Assembly: GCF_000717915.1 (NCBI RefSeq)
Contig: NZ_JOCX01000039.1
Location: 1-37,753, forward strand
DNA: 37,753 bases
Direction: 5' to 3'
From: Streptomyces sp. NRRL S-244
Lineage (GTDB): Bacteria; Actinomycetota; Actinomycetes; Streptomycetales; Streptomycetaceae
Below, piece after piece: positions 1,711 through 18,419 of the stretch; position 1 is the stretch's first letter, and each line of letters starts with the position of its first letter. The position numbers were made by a program, and so were the translations under genes. The notes below the pieces were generated by a model. That model did no database searches. It was not told the origin of the DNA and saw nothing but the letters and a program-made list of their open reading frames with translations.

Positions 1711-4700
1711 GTGCACCTCAAGTCCCTGACCCTGCGTGGCTTCAAGTCCTTCGCCTCCGCAACCACCCTGCGCTTCGAGCCCGGCATCACGTGTGTCGTG
1801 GGCCCCAACGGCTCGGGCAAGTCCAATGTGGTGGACGCGCTGTCCTGGGTCATGGGGGAGCAGGGCGCCAAATCCCTGCGCGGCGGCAAGATGGAGGACG
1901 TCATCTTCGCCGGCACCACCGGGCGGCCGCCGCTCGGGCGGGCCGAGGTGTCACTGACCATCGACAACTCCGACGGCGCCCTGCCGATCGAGTACGCCGA
2001 GGTCACGATCACGCGCATCATGTTCCGCGGCGGCAGCAGCGAGTACCAGATCAACGGGGACACCTGCCGGCTGCTCGACATCCAGGAGCTGCTCTCCGAC
2101 TCGGGCATCGGCCGCGAGATGCACGTCATCGTCGGCCAGGGCCAGCTGGACTCCGTCCTGCACGCCGATCCGATGGGCCGGCGCGCCTTCATCGAGGAGG
2201 CGGCCGGCGTACTCAAGCACCGCAAGCGCAAAGAGAAGGCGCTGCGGAAGCTGGACGCGATGCAGGCGAACCTCGCGCGCGTACAGGACCTCAACGAGGA
2301 ACTGCGGCGCCAGCTGAAGCCGCTGGGGCGGCAGGCCGCGGTGGCCCGGCGGGCGGCCGTCATCCAGGCCGACCTGCGCGATGCGCGGCTGCGGCTGCTC
2401 GCCGACGACCTGGTGACGCTGCGGGGCGCGCTCGACGCGGAGATCGCGGACGAGGCGGCGCTGAAGGAGCGCAAGGAGGCGGCCGAGGCGCAGCTCGCGC
2501 AGGCCCTGCGGCGCGAGGCGGAGCTTGAGGAAACGGTGCGGCAGTTGACGCCGCGGCTCCAGCGGGCGCAGCAGACCTGGTACGAGCTGTCCCAGCTGGC
2601 CGAGCGGGTACGGGGGACTGCCTCCCTGGCCGATGCCCGGGTCAAGTCGGCCTCGGCCGCGGCCCCCGAGGAGGAGCGGCGCGGCCGCGATCCGGAGGAC
2701 ATGGAGCGGGAGGCCGCCCGGATCCGCGAGCAGGAGGCGGAGCTGACGGCCGCGCTGGAGGCGGCGTCGCGGGCGCTGGAGGACACCGTCGAGCACCGGG
2801 CGGAGCTGGAGCGGTCGCTGGCCGCGGAGGAGCGGCGGCTGCGGGACGCGGCGCGGGCCATCGCCGATCGGCGCGAGGGGCTGGCGCGGATGAGGGGGCG
2901 GCTGGGCGCGGCCCGGTCCCGGGCCGGGGCGGCGCAGGCGGAGATCGACCGGCTGGTGGCGGCGCGGGACGCGGCCGAGTCCCGGGCCGGGGCCGCGCAG
3001 GCGGAGTACGAGGCACTGGCCGAGGAGGTCGGCGGGCTCGAAGACCCGGCGGTGGACGAGGAGTACGCGGCGGCGCGGGCGGAGCTCGCGGCGGCGGAGG
3101 CCGCGCTGGCGCAGGCGCGGGACGCGGTGGCGGCCGCGGAGAAATCACGGGCGGCGGTGTCGGCGCGGCGGGACGCGCTGGCGCTCGGGCTGCGGAGGAA
3201 GGACGGCACGGGGGCGCTGCTCGCCGCGCGGGAGCGGCTGGCGGGGCTGCTCGGCCCGGCGGCGGAGCGGCTGTCGGTGACCCCGGGGTACGAGGTCGCG
3301 GTGGCGGCGGCGCTGGGAGCGGCGGCGGATGCGCTGGCGGTGTCCTCGCCGGGCGCGGCGGCCGCCGCCATCCGGCACCTCAGGGATACGGACGCGGGCC
3401 GGGCCACCCTCCTGATCACGCACGCACCGACCGGGGTCCCGATCCCGGGCCAGGCCGATGCCGAGCCCCTGGCGGGTGCGGCGGATGCGCCGTCGGGGAT
3501 CCCGTTCCCGGGCCAGGCTGCCACCGGCGTCGATGCCGCGGATCCGGCGCGGCCTTCGGCCGAGACCCCGGTCGCGGGGGAGTGCGCGGCCGACGGGGTC
3601 GCGCCGGGGGGAGCTTTCCCCCACCCCGCCCCTTCCCGGAACCGAGGCTCCGCCCCGGACCCCGCGGCTCAAACGCCGGCGGGGCCGGAGGGGTCTGACC
3701 GGGGCTCCGCCCCGGGGACCGGCGCTCAGGCAGTGGCATGGCCCGCCGCGGGGGCCGTGTCGGCGCCGACGTCTGTCGCCGGCGGTGTCGTGCCCGCCGG
3801 GGGGCTGGTGCAGGGGGATGCCGGGCTGGTGCGGGCCGTGGGGTGGGTGCTGCGGGAGTACGTCGTCGTCGGGGGGCTCGACGAGGCCGAGCGGGTCGTC
3901 GGGGCGCGGCCCGATCTCGTGGCCGTGACCCTGGACGGGGACGTGCTCGGTGCGCACCTCGCGCACGGCGGGTCCGCCGGGGCTCCCAGCCTGATCGAGG
4001 TGCAGGCCGCCGTCGACGAGGCGGATGACGAGCTGGTCCGGCTGGATGCCGAGTGCGCGGAACGCGGCTCGGCGCGGGAGCGGGCCCACGAGCTGCGGCG
4101 GGAGCTCGTGGCGCGGGTCGAGGAGATCGGTGAGCGGCGGCGGGCCGGGGAGCAGGCCCGGGCCGGGGTGGCGCAGCAACTGGGGCGCCTCGCCGGGCAG
4201 GCGAAGGGCGCCGCGGGCGAGGCCGAGCGCAGCGCCGCCGCCGCGGCCAAGGCCCAGGACGCCCTGGAGCAGGCGCTGGCCGAGGTCGAGGAGTGCGCCG
4301 AACGGCTCGCCATCGCCGAGGAGAACGACCCCATCGGGGACGGTGGCGCGGGGGAGCCGGACACCGCCGTGCGCGACCGGCTCGCCGCCGACGGGGCCAA
4401 CGCCCGCCAGACCGAGATGGAAGCCCGGCTCCAGCTCAGGACCCACGAGGAGCGGGTCAAGGGGCTGGCCGGACGGGCCGATTCCCTGGACCGCGGCGCC
4501 CGCGCAGAACGCGAGGCCCGCGCCCGCGCCGAGCGCCGCCGGGCCAGGCTGCGCCACGAGGCCGAGGTGGCCCGCGCCGTCGCCGACGGGGCCCGGCAGC
4601 TCCTCGCGCACCTGGAGGTCTCGCTCCACCGGGCGGAGCAGGAGCGCGCCGCCGCCGAGTACGCCAAGGGCCTGCGCGAACGGGAGCTCGGCGAGGCCCG

Positions 4701-5586
4701 GACCCGGGGCCGCGACCTCAAGGGCGAGCTCGACAAGCTCACCGACTCCGTGCACCGCGGCGAGGTGCTCGGCGCCGAGAAGCGGCTGCGCATCGAGCAG
4801 GTGGAGTCGCGTGCACTGGAGGAGTTCGGGATGGAGTCGGCGAGCCTCGTCGCCGAGTACGGGCCGGACCAGCCCGTACCGCCGAGCCCGCCCGCCGACG
4901 GGGAGGACCCGGACGCCGACGCCGAGCCGGGGCCCTTCGTACGGGCGCAGCAGGAGAAGCGGCTGAAGGCGGCTGAGCGCGCGTACCAGCAGCTCGGCAA
5001 GGTCAACCCGCTCGCCCTGGAGGAGTTCGCGGCGCTGGAGGAGCGCCACCGCTTCCTCAGCGAGCAGTTGGAGGATCTGCGCAAGACCCGGGCCGATCTC
5101 CTTCAGGTAGTGAAGGAAGTCGACGAGCGTGTCGAGCAGGTGTTCAGCGAGGCCTACCGGGACACGGCCCGGGAGTTCGAGGGGGTGTTCTCGCGGTTGT
5201 TCCCCGGCGGCGAGGGCCGGCTGATCCTCACCGATCCCGACAACATGCTGACCACCGGCGTGGACGTGGAGGCCCGCCCGCCGGGCAAGAAGGTCAAGCG
5301 GCTTTCGCTGCTCTCCGGCGGCGAGCGCTCGCTGACCGCCGTCGCCCTGCTGGTGTCCATCTTCAAGGCCCGGCCCAGCCCGTTCTACGTGATGGACGAG
5401 GTCGAGGCCGCGCTCGACGACACCAACCTGCAGCGGCTGATCCGGATCATGGAGGAGCTGCAGGAGAGCTCGCAGCTGATCGTGATCACGCACCAGAAGC
5501 GGACGATGGAGGTCGCCGACGCGCTGTATGGCGTCTCCATGCAGGGCGACGGCGTCTCCAAGGTCATCAGCCAGCGGCTTCGCTGA
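1711..5586 (+). CDS. smc: Chromosome segregation protein SMC with an enlarged hinge
   Basis: SMC is the ATPase core of bacterial condensin and acts with ScpA/ScpB in chromosome folding and segregation. The 1291-residue protein starts with GTG at 1711 and the family N-terminus HLKSLTLRGFKSF. Walker A GPNGSGKSN is at residues 31-39, the signature motif LSGGERS at 1201-1207, Walker B VMDEVEAALDD at 1227-1237 and the switch-region ITHQK close behind. Long Ala/Glu/Arg-rich coiled coils (about 165-480 and 770-1100) flank the hinge. Streptomyces SMCs are usually near 1180-1200 residues; the excess lies in the hinge, where about residues 571-697 are Ala/Pro/Gly-rich low-complexity sequence containing the repeats G-V-P-I-P-G-Q-A and G-I-P-F-P-G-Q-A and two R-G-S-A-P units. 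The insert interrupts the hinge between a GRATLLI strand and the LVRAVGWVL helix. The reading frame is intact. A weak AAAGG ribosome site lies upstream. Confidence 0.96.
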   Translation: MHLKSLTLRGFKSFASATTLRFEPGITCVVGPNGSGKSNVVDALSWVMGEQGAKSLRGGKMEDVIFAGTTGRPPLGRAEVSLTIDNSDGALPIEYAEVTITRIMFRGGSSEYQINGDTCRLLDIQELLSDSGIGREMHVIVGQGQLDSVLHADPMGRRAFIEEAAGVLKHRKRKEKALRKLDAMQANLARVQDLNEELRRQLKPLGRQAAVARRAAVIQADLRDARLRLLADDLVTLRGALDAEIADEAALKERKEAAEAQLAQALRREAELEETVRQLTPRLQRAQQTWYELSQLAERVRGTASLADARVKSASAAAPEEERRGRDPEDMEREAARIREQEAELTAALEAASRALEDTVEHRAELERSLAAEERRLRDAARAIADRREGLARMRGRLGAARSRAGAAQAEIDRLVAARDAAESRAGAAQAEYEALAEEVGGLEDPAVDEEYAAARAELAAAEAALAQARDAVAAAEKSRAAVSARRDALALGLRRKDGTGALLAARERLAGLLGPAAERLSVTPGYEVAVAAALGAAADALAVSSPGAAAAAIRHLRDTDAGRATLLITHAPTGVPIPGQADAEPLAGAADAPSGIPFPGQAATGVDAADPARPSAETPVAGECAADGVAPGGAFPHPAPSRNRGSAPDPAAQTPAGPEGSDRGSAPGTGAQAVAWPAAGAVSAPTSVAGGVVPAGGLVQGDAGLVRAVGWVLREYVVVGGLDEAERVVGARPDLVAVTLDGDVLGAHLAHGGSAGAPSLIEVQAAVDEADDELVRLDAECAERGSARERAHELRRELVARVEEIGERRRAGEQARAGVAQQLGRLAGQAKGAAGEAERSAAAAAKAQDALEQALAEVEECAERLAIAEENDPIGDGGAGEPDTAVRDRLAADGANARQTEMEARLQLRTHEERVKGLAGRADSLDRGARAEREARARAERRRARLRHEAEVARAVADGARQLLAHLEVSLHRAEQERAAAEYAKGLRERELGEARTRGRDLKGELDKLTDSVHRGEVLGAEKRLRIEQVESRALEEFGMESASLVAEYGPDQPVPPSPPADGEDPDADAEPGPFVRAQQEKRLKAAERAYQQLGKVNPLALEEFAALEERHRFLSEQLEDLRKTRADLLQVVKEVDERVEQVFSEAYRDTAREFEGVFSRLFPGGEGRLILTDPDNMLTTGVDVEARPPGKKVKRLSLLSGGERSLTAVALLVSIFKARPSPFYVMDEVEAALDDTNLQRLIRIMEELQESSQLIVITHQKRTMEVADALYGVSMQGDGVSKVISQRLR
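3615..3727 (+). repeat. Streptomyces intergenic-type GC-rich repeat inside smc
   Basis: Within the hinge insert the DNA resembles the GC-rich hairpin repeat widely seen between Streptomyces genes: a CCACCCCGCCCCTTCCCGG-like start, a CTCAAACGCCGGCGGGGC block, and two copies of GGCTCCGCCCCGG at 3646-3658 and 3703-3715. The copies are exactly 57 bp (19 codons) apart. The second forms the hairpin CCGGGGC-TCC-GCCCCGG (3699-3715), whose exact reverse complement occurs in the glnD-ffh spacer. Assignment to that repeat class is from memory of Streptomyces sequences. Confidence 0.6.
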
Positions 5587-18353: not shown

Positions 18354-18372
18354 CCCGGGGCGGAGCCCCGGG
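18354..18372. repeat. GC-rich hairpin repeat in the glnD-ffh spacer
   Basis: CCCGGGGC-GGA-GCCCCGGG, an 8-bp stem with a 3-base loop, 30 bp after the glnD stop. The inner 17-mer is the exact reverse complement of the hairpin inside the smc hinge insert at 3699-3715. It belongs to the same kind of Streptomyces intergenic repeat and may act as the glnD terminator. Confidence 0.6.
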
Positions 18373-18419
18373 GCCGCGAACGGGCGGGTCCCCGGACGGG
18401 GGGAGGGCCCGATACCCTG

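Follow-up and report, generated by a model that had tools for sequence, protein, structure and literature searches.

Probable in-frame capture of intergenic hairpin repeats by the hypervariable hinge loop of SMC and by other conserved proteins in Streptomyces

Introduction

REP and BIME elements, which go with RAYT (Y1) transposases, are small hairpin repeats, commonly placed 3′ of a gene or between two convergent ones. As a review describes them (PMC10969869), Rickettsia palindromic elements (RPEs; Ogata 2000 and 2002) are short palindromic repeats of about 150 bp that each encode a conserved peptide and occur in many copies, some located between genes and others reading in frame with the unrelated genes that hold them. 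The enterobacterial small mobile sequences RU-1, RU-2 and RU-3 (Delihas 2007) are described as MITE-like and as intergenic yet also present inside annotated genes with the open frame kept; neither SMC nor HemA appears among its section headings (PMC2759123). Within open-licence PMC text, no paper was found that, by title or abstract, concerned such repeats in Streptomyces coding regions, and the papers holding one of the core strings in their text were, by title, on other subjects.

Here we describe two unrelated repeats, A and B, in the hinge loop of Streptomyces SMC proteins, starting from the SMC encoded in a 37,753-nucleotide stretch of the Streptomyces sp. NRRL S-244 genome (hereafter, the window). 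With REP and BIME elements, repeat A shares the small hairpin form, and A and B taken together a frequent position between convergent genes. Repeat A is also like the RPEs in being found in many copies, between genes and in frame within genes, but it has a 75-bp consensus, comes from a different phylum and, within one genome, is read in four of the six repeat frames (+0, −0, −1 and −2) and in both orientations, rather than as one conserved frame and peptide. As far as the RPE description goes, A resembles RPE capture without the fixed frame or peptide. In the same way, A is like the RU sequences in its intergenic and open-frame intragenic positions, but those sequences are described as similar to MITEs, and for A the alignment of its diverged loop copies identified no target duplication.

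Results and discussion

The smc gene (1711..5586, + strand) is open for 1,291 codons, and its product scored 902 bits against the equivalog TIGR02168 (cut-off 567), identifying it as chromosome segregation protein SMC, the bacterial condensin. Because smc can be deleted in Streptomyces, the word 'essential', which the original prediction had attached to it, is best handled with care. The hinge match to PF06470 was confined to a first half at residues 511–574 (3241..3432, +; 51.1 bits, profile positions 2–66 of 116), and alignment to relatives restarted at residue 707, where a second half (residues 707–760; 3829..3990, +) was recognized from that alignment, its invariant GG and a fold match to solved hinges. 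Between them lies a hypervariable loop of 137 residues (570–706; 3418..3828, +). In an AlphaFold2 model of the hinge (54-row alignment, from 67 stretches), mean pLDDT was above 90 in most hinge-core blocks and about 41–60 for most of model residues 80–190, with no helix or strand across model residues 75 to 193. The loop branches off where the strand GRATLLI ends, at the junction of the two hinge halves. The modelled core matched the solved SMC hinges 5h69, 1gxj and 3nwc, which have the same core fold (Foldseek E of 3e-9 to 7e-7); the hinge of a relative also matched by sequence, and sequence alignments place a short connection at the loop site in the solved hinges 5h69, 3nwc and 4rsj. The loop is predicted from this model to be disordered and the hinge core intact, in agreement with the earlier expectations of a flexible segment joining two hinge elements and of a disordered loop outside the hinge core.

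To place this loop among its relatives, we compared 120 SMC proteins, the window's included (18 of 78 loci, and L162 of 60 others, had no full-length frame and were dropped; at least one genome is duplicated, as L043 and L156). Loop lengths ranged from 27 to 361 residues, with a median of 53: loops of 27–31 residues were common among Streptomyces, long loops were present in several clades, and an exact repeated peptide of at least 8 residues occurred within 20 of the 120 loops. All 14 non-Streptomyces rows of a FastTree phylogeny (built from the SMC protein minus the loop, with six further rows, L043, L114, L049, L054, L068 and L089, dropped) had loops of 28–36 residues, and loops of 66–100 residues were found in Nonomuraea, Cryobacterium, Brevibacterium and Bifidobacterium, whose rows lie outside the tree. 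Relative to the non-Streptomyces rows in the tree, the window SMC has approximately 100–109 extra loop residues, such that the extra low-complexity segment first noted is real and its count lower than the roughly 125 residues then proposed. Two sister proteins (L150 and L151) were 94–98% identical to the window SMC outside the loop and approximately 50% identical inside it, as had been foreseen for a segment absent or variable in near relatives; both have long loops of different sequence, with a possible remnant of A in L150. On these alignments, the hinge connection is a hypervariable hot spot for both length and sequence, and an insertion at this position, originally considered unexpected, is therefore not so. 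Provided that translation of the long frames follows the prediction, disordered inserts of more than 300 residues would be tolerated by the SMC hinge, which would constrain models of hinge opening.

Two further features of these proteins were observed. Hinge loops of 331–361 residues in L175, L189, L191 and L192 carry a recurring VPGTR motif; considered as a third repeat unit, it had no BLAST match above noise in the flanking DNA examined. In three assemblies (L079, L096 and L099), SMC is split over two frames, through genuine frameshifts or through errors in sequencing the GC-rich DNA.

Part of the window loop was identified as repeat A. The sequence GGCTCCGCCCCGG is present at 3646–3658 and 3703–3715, at the spacing of exactly 57 bp first reported and with the frame intact throughout, and the full direct repeat around it measures 46 nt at 72% identity. 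Profiles for A and B were built only from intergenic, non-SMC copies (24 of 30 for A and 27 of 30 for B), and 360 control segments (the reversed loops plus two coiled-coil segments per SMC) reached at most 7.6 bits for A and 9.1 bits for B. The window loop scored 56.7 bits for A, delimiting a putatively captured copy at 3586..3704 (+), read in repeat frame +0 (FPHPAPSRNRGSAPDPAAQTPAGPEG), with own-genome BLAST matches mostly within 3602–3690. A partial second tandem copy (3698..3730, +), which holds the second GGCTCCGCCCCGG at 3703, is recognized from the direct repeat; its profile score of 6.4 bits is below that of the best control. Together, the approximately 90–120 bp of A and the partial second copy account for roughly one-quarter to one-third of the loop, and A supplies some 30–40 of the extra residues, the remainder being other low-complexity sequence. 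A direct-repeat search also recovered an internal tandem copy of 37 nt at the start of the loop (3419–3455 and 3482–3518, 81% identical; 3419..3518, +), and in the loop of L164 the A peptide is repeated in series, as RGSAPDPAPQTPAGLDV or a variant of it. A caution is in order here: peptides like SAPDPAPQTPAGL in the loops of Streptomyces proteins represent repeat DNA and not domains.

The same repeat is numerous elsewhere in the genome. A search of the strain's own 7.1-Mb genome with 3602–3730 gave at least 47 matches at E ≤ 1, smc included (40 of 126 candidates from a first pass went on to scoring); apart from smc itself, the best had an E of 5.6e-24. The 75-bp consensus built from own-genome copies folds into two hairpins. 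By our own codon-usage gene predictor, 14 of the 28 distinct own-genome A sites examined lay within predicted frames (smc included), 3 over a frame end and only 11 outside, a coding proportion lower than expected if 87% of the genome is taken to be coding (a calculation made on 13 of 28). Across genomes, and by the same predictor, A and B are mostly intergenic: one copy taken from each of 30 genomes (the own genome included) was intergenic in 25 cases for A, with 5 inside frames, one of these the own HemA copy, and a corresponding sample for B, again of 30 genomes, placed 27 copies between genes, 2 within frames and 1 on a frame edge. Of the 52 intergenic copies of A and B together, 26 were between convergent genes. 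These locations cover 30 of the 60 genomes with an A match and 30 of the 32 with a B match; several of the A genomes have only 1–5 matches, and some of these, as in L236, may not be genuine copies. Near relatives are over-represented among the genomes, as 60 were taken from roughly 150 places and 382 genomes had an SMC match. The initial assignment of the loop DNA to an intergenic repeat class is borne out by these results.

Loop content tended to follow genome content. In 64 genomes, the A core (≤2 mismatches) had a median of 85.5 copies in the 10 genomes with A in the loop (range 17–331, the highest in G188), versus 9.5 in the 54 others, and B had a median of 65 copies in 9 genomes with B in the loop, versus 0 in the other 55; 456 B copies were counted in G228. 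The excess held within each clade (P = 0.003 and 0.002, uncorrected for relatedness). Exceptions were G227 (102 A copies) and G096 (295), neither with A in the loop by profile, the former keeping VPHPAPSRDG, perhaps an A remnant; G079, whose loop lacks B despite 274 genomic B copies; and G285, with 161 A copies and a 29-residue loop that was read rather than profiled.

We also assessed how the two repeats are distributed over the SMC phylogeny. Repeat A was found in 10 of the 120 loops, the weakest at 16.7 bits, and in one of them (L166, 27.6 bits) it lies on the opposite strand; B was found in 17 of the 120 at 16.8 bits or more, leaving out two loops (L069 and L082) at 9–11 bits. The nine same-strand A rows all fell within one 22-row clade (support 99), with the inverted-A row as its sister, and all 17 B rows fell within a separate 42-row clade (support 99). 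Read from the peptides, the A-bearing loops of the former clade share a common frame, (F)PHPAPSRN(R/W)GSAPDPAPQTPAG, or remnants of it, which fits a single ancestral capture with later loss; most simply, inverted A and B represent independent captures. A was probably captured in the ancestor of the 22-row clade rather than in this strain, such that arrival by insertion is upheld in the sense of a captured genomic repeat and not as a recent event here. Among these proteins, we found no SMC site that had recently been empty and showed clean junctions or a target duplication, and alignment of the loop DNA, which is too diverged to align well, identified no clean junction or target duplication either. 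Given the long, different loops of the two sisters and the possible remnant in one of them, the capture is old, with gain distinguished from loss by inference.

SMC is one of many A-bearing frames and is not special among them. In the own genome, A is located between the dehydrogenase and dimerization domains of glutamyl-tRNA reductase (HemA; L004), within the frame of the HrpB helicase, inside the BT domain of a biotin carboxylase/MCC-alpha-like protein, between the domains of a two-domain ABC ATPase, of an AtuA protein (which has two) and of a UvrD/PD-(D/E)XK protein, and within the frame of a SpoIIE-type phosphatase whose Pfam domain is matched in two stretches. In a weaker group, no pair of flanking domains was matched: an FHA protein, a phosphoesterase, a DUF2637 protein, a NERD protein (near the stop), L024 (at a contig start) and L026. 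For HrpB and HemA, sites with and without the repeat could be compared among relatives, with repeat frames read by eye. The A profile matched 11 of 24 HrpB loci, and in the loop between RWRxEARRLERAA and DDAAAGLVAALAFPERVA (4 of 23 loci were not parsed by the flank motif) A is present in different frames in G000, G199, G278, G054, G042, G257 and others, and gives no match in the short loops, with the same flanks, of G074, G173, G209 and the sister G134; the sister G071 likewise has no A match. In HemA, A matched 14 of 30 loci (L270–L299), and the linker (VSCTGATG to LLDL) is 18 and 25 residues long in G006 and G089, versus 131–204 residues in the other 28 of the 30 Streptomyces genomes. Together, these comparisons suggest that conserved proteins have taken up genomic repeats time and again in this group. 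They outline a concrete route by which non-coding repeats can be incorporated into such proteins in a high-GC bacterium, documented by sites with and without the repeat, by the use of several frames and by two families that are unrelated to each other.

We consider it highly probable that the SMC loop reflects chance in-frame capture of repeat A in a permissive disordered loop, followed by tandem copying and decay, with the passenger serving as a flexible spacer. The connection between the hinge halves would be a disordered, length-tolerant loop, in which an ancestor of this Streptomyces group may have captured the intergenic hairpin repeat in frame; the captured copy would then have been partly duplicated in tandem, would now be decaying and would act only as a spacer. 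The same process could account for inverted A in one relative's loop, for B in the loop of another clade and for A in other conserved proteins, with unstructured loops tolerating capture and structured parts presumably not, in line with the lower than expected proportion of coding copies. Capture would be easy because the repeats are GC-rich and open in most frames: 5 of 6 frames are stop-free for A and 6 of 6 for B, so that copying into a coding loop likely keeps the frame if the length fits. Shuffled sequences are about equally open (means of 4.6 and 5.7 of 6), so the openness is no more than composition predicts, and selection of the repeat to be stop-free was ruled out. The direction from intergenic to coding DNA, the neutrality of the insert, and its translation and retention in the mature protein are, in this account, what we infer.

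Some features of the A segment lie outside what pure neutral decay would predict. The segment is nearer to the repeat consensus than is the rest of the loop, and the stem of its hairpin is swapped pairwise in SMC, as C..G or T..A (SRNRGS or SRNWGS), between L164, L168 and L180 on the one hand and the window, L169 and L179 on the other (L167 is mixed). In a small sample of 24 exact sites from 9 genomes, the stem pairs were T-A (10), C-G (11), C-A (2) and T-G (1), and point mutation by itself does not readily account for a paired change of this kind within coding sequence. A bolder and more tentative proposal, which we think somewhat less likely to hold than to fail, would be that 'protein-invading' hairpin repeats operate genus-wide: families belonging to individual clades would repeatedly enter, in whichever frame, a few shared permissive loops, among them those of the SMC hinge, the HemA linker and HrpB. 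There they would expand in tandem and be refreshed by recombination with genomic copies, of which the swapped stems would be the trace, and conserved proteins would owe many of their new disordered segments to them, as a main source.

The paired stem changes, the single A frame kept in the A-bearing loops of one clade and the occurrence of long loops in several clades would also be consistent with a functional loop and repeat, in which a disordered segment, or a hairpin in the mRNA or DNA, is under selection, for example for hinge opening, protein contacts or translation speed. Such a function is unlikely, however, given how strongly loop length and sequence vary among close relatives (approximately half identical inside the loop in sisters that are nearly identical outside it), the many Streptomyces with loops of 27–31 residues, the other frames of A that are read in other genes and the disorder predicted by AlphaFold.

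Chance capture was also weighed against a mobile element with its own machinery, such as REP elements with a Y1 transposase, actively targeting coding loops. The hundreds of copies in some genomes, and the way in which SMC, HemA and HrpB are each matched recurrently in one particular loop, would fit such an element, but we regard it as improbable to a similar degree: Y1_Tnp (PF01797) was detected in only 7 of 20 genomes and gave no match in the other 13, including the own genome (G000), G074 (168 A copies) and G096; coding copies are fewer than the assumed coding share would give; and no target duplication was demonstrated. Because its presence does not track repeat number across the 20 genomes, the Y1/RAYT transposase was rejected as the mover.

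Outward spread of the repeat from smc into intergenic regions found no point in its support and is very improbable, as A is numerous in genomes whose SMC loop lacks it by profile (G227 and G096) and the loop of another clade holds B, not A. Least likely of all, with next to no probability, is a chance likeness of GC-rich low-complexity coding DNA to GC-rich repeats without any insertion, which BLAST noise reaching approximately 1e-7 in GC-rich coding controls might suggest but which the profile control scores rule out, with the reversed core patterns (B, 0 in all 64 genomes; A, 0–2 in 62 of the 64, with 15 in G096 and 6 in G372) and the flat codon-position GC also against it.

That noise was the reason for not relying on plain BLAST of loops against flanks: at E ≤ 1e-3 it matched 55 of 120 loops but, among the controls, also 33 of the 120 reversed loops and 77 of the 120 coiled-coil segments, and a few loops without A or B reached 2e-8 to 2e-9. 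GC at codon positions 1, 2 and 3 was 0.81/0.81/0.81 in the A segment, versus 0.79/0.50/0.95 in residues 1–500 (about 0.8/0.5/0.95 in the coiled-coil parts of the window SMC), as expected for former non-coding DNA, and just 5 of 1,248 windows of the smc gene had a codon-usage score as low as that of the A segment.

Elsewhere in the window, a weak A match (10.4 bits) lies at 18355–18391 (−), just past a predicted gene end at approximately 18321. Finally, a PGQ(A/G) motif (LPGQA, VPGQG) recurs in the SMC loops of several clades and in the DUF2637 protein of the own genome (L020), and may be another captured, or a convergent, low-complexity unit.
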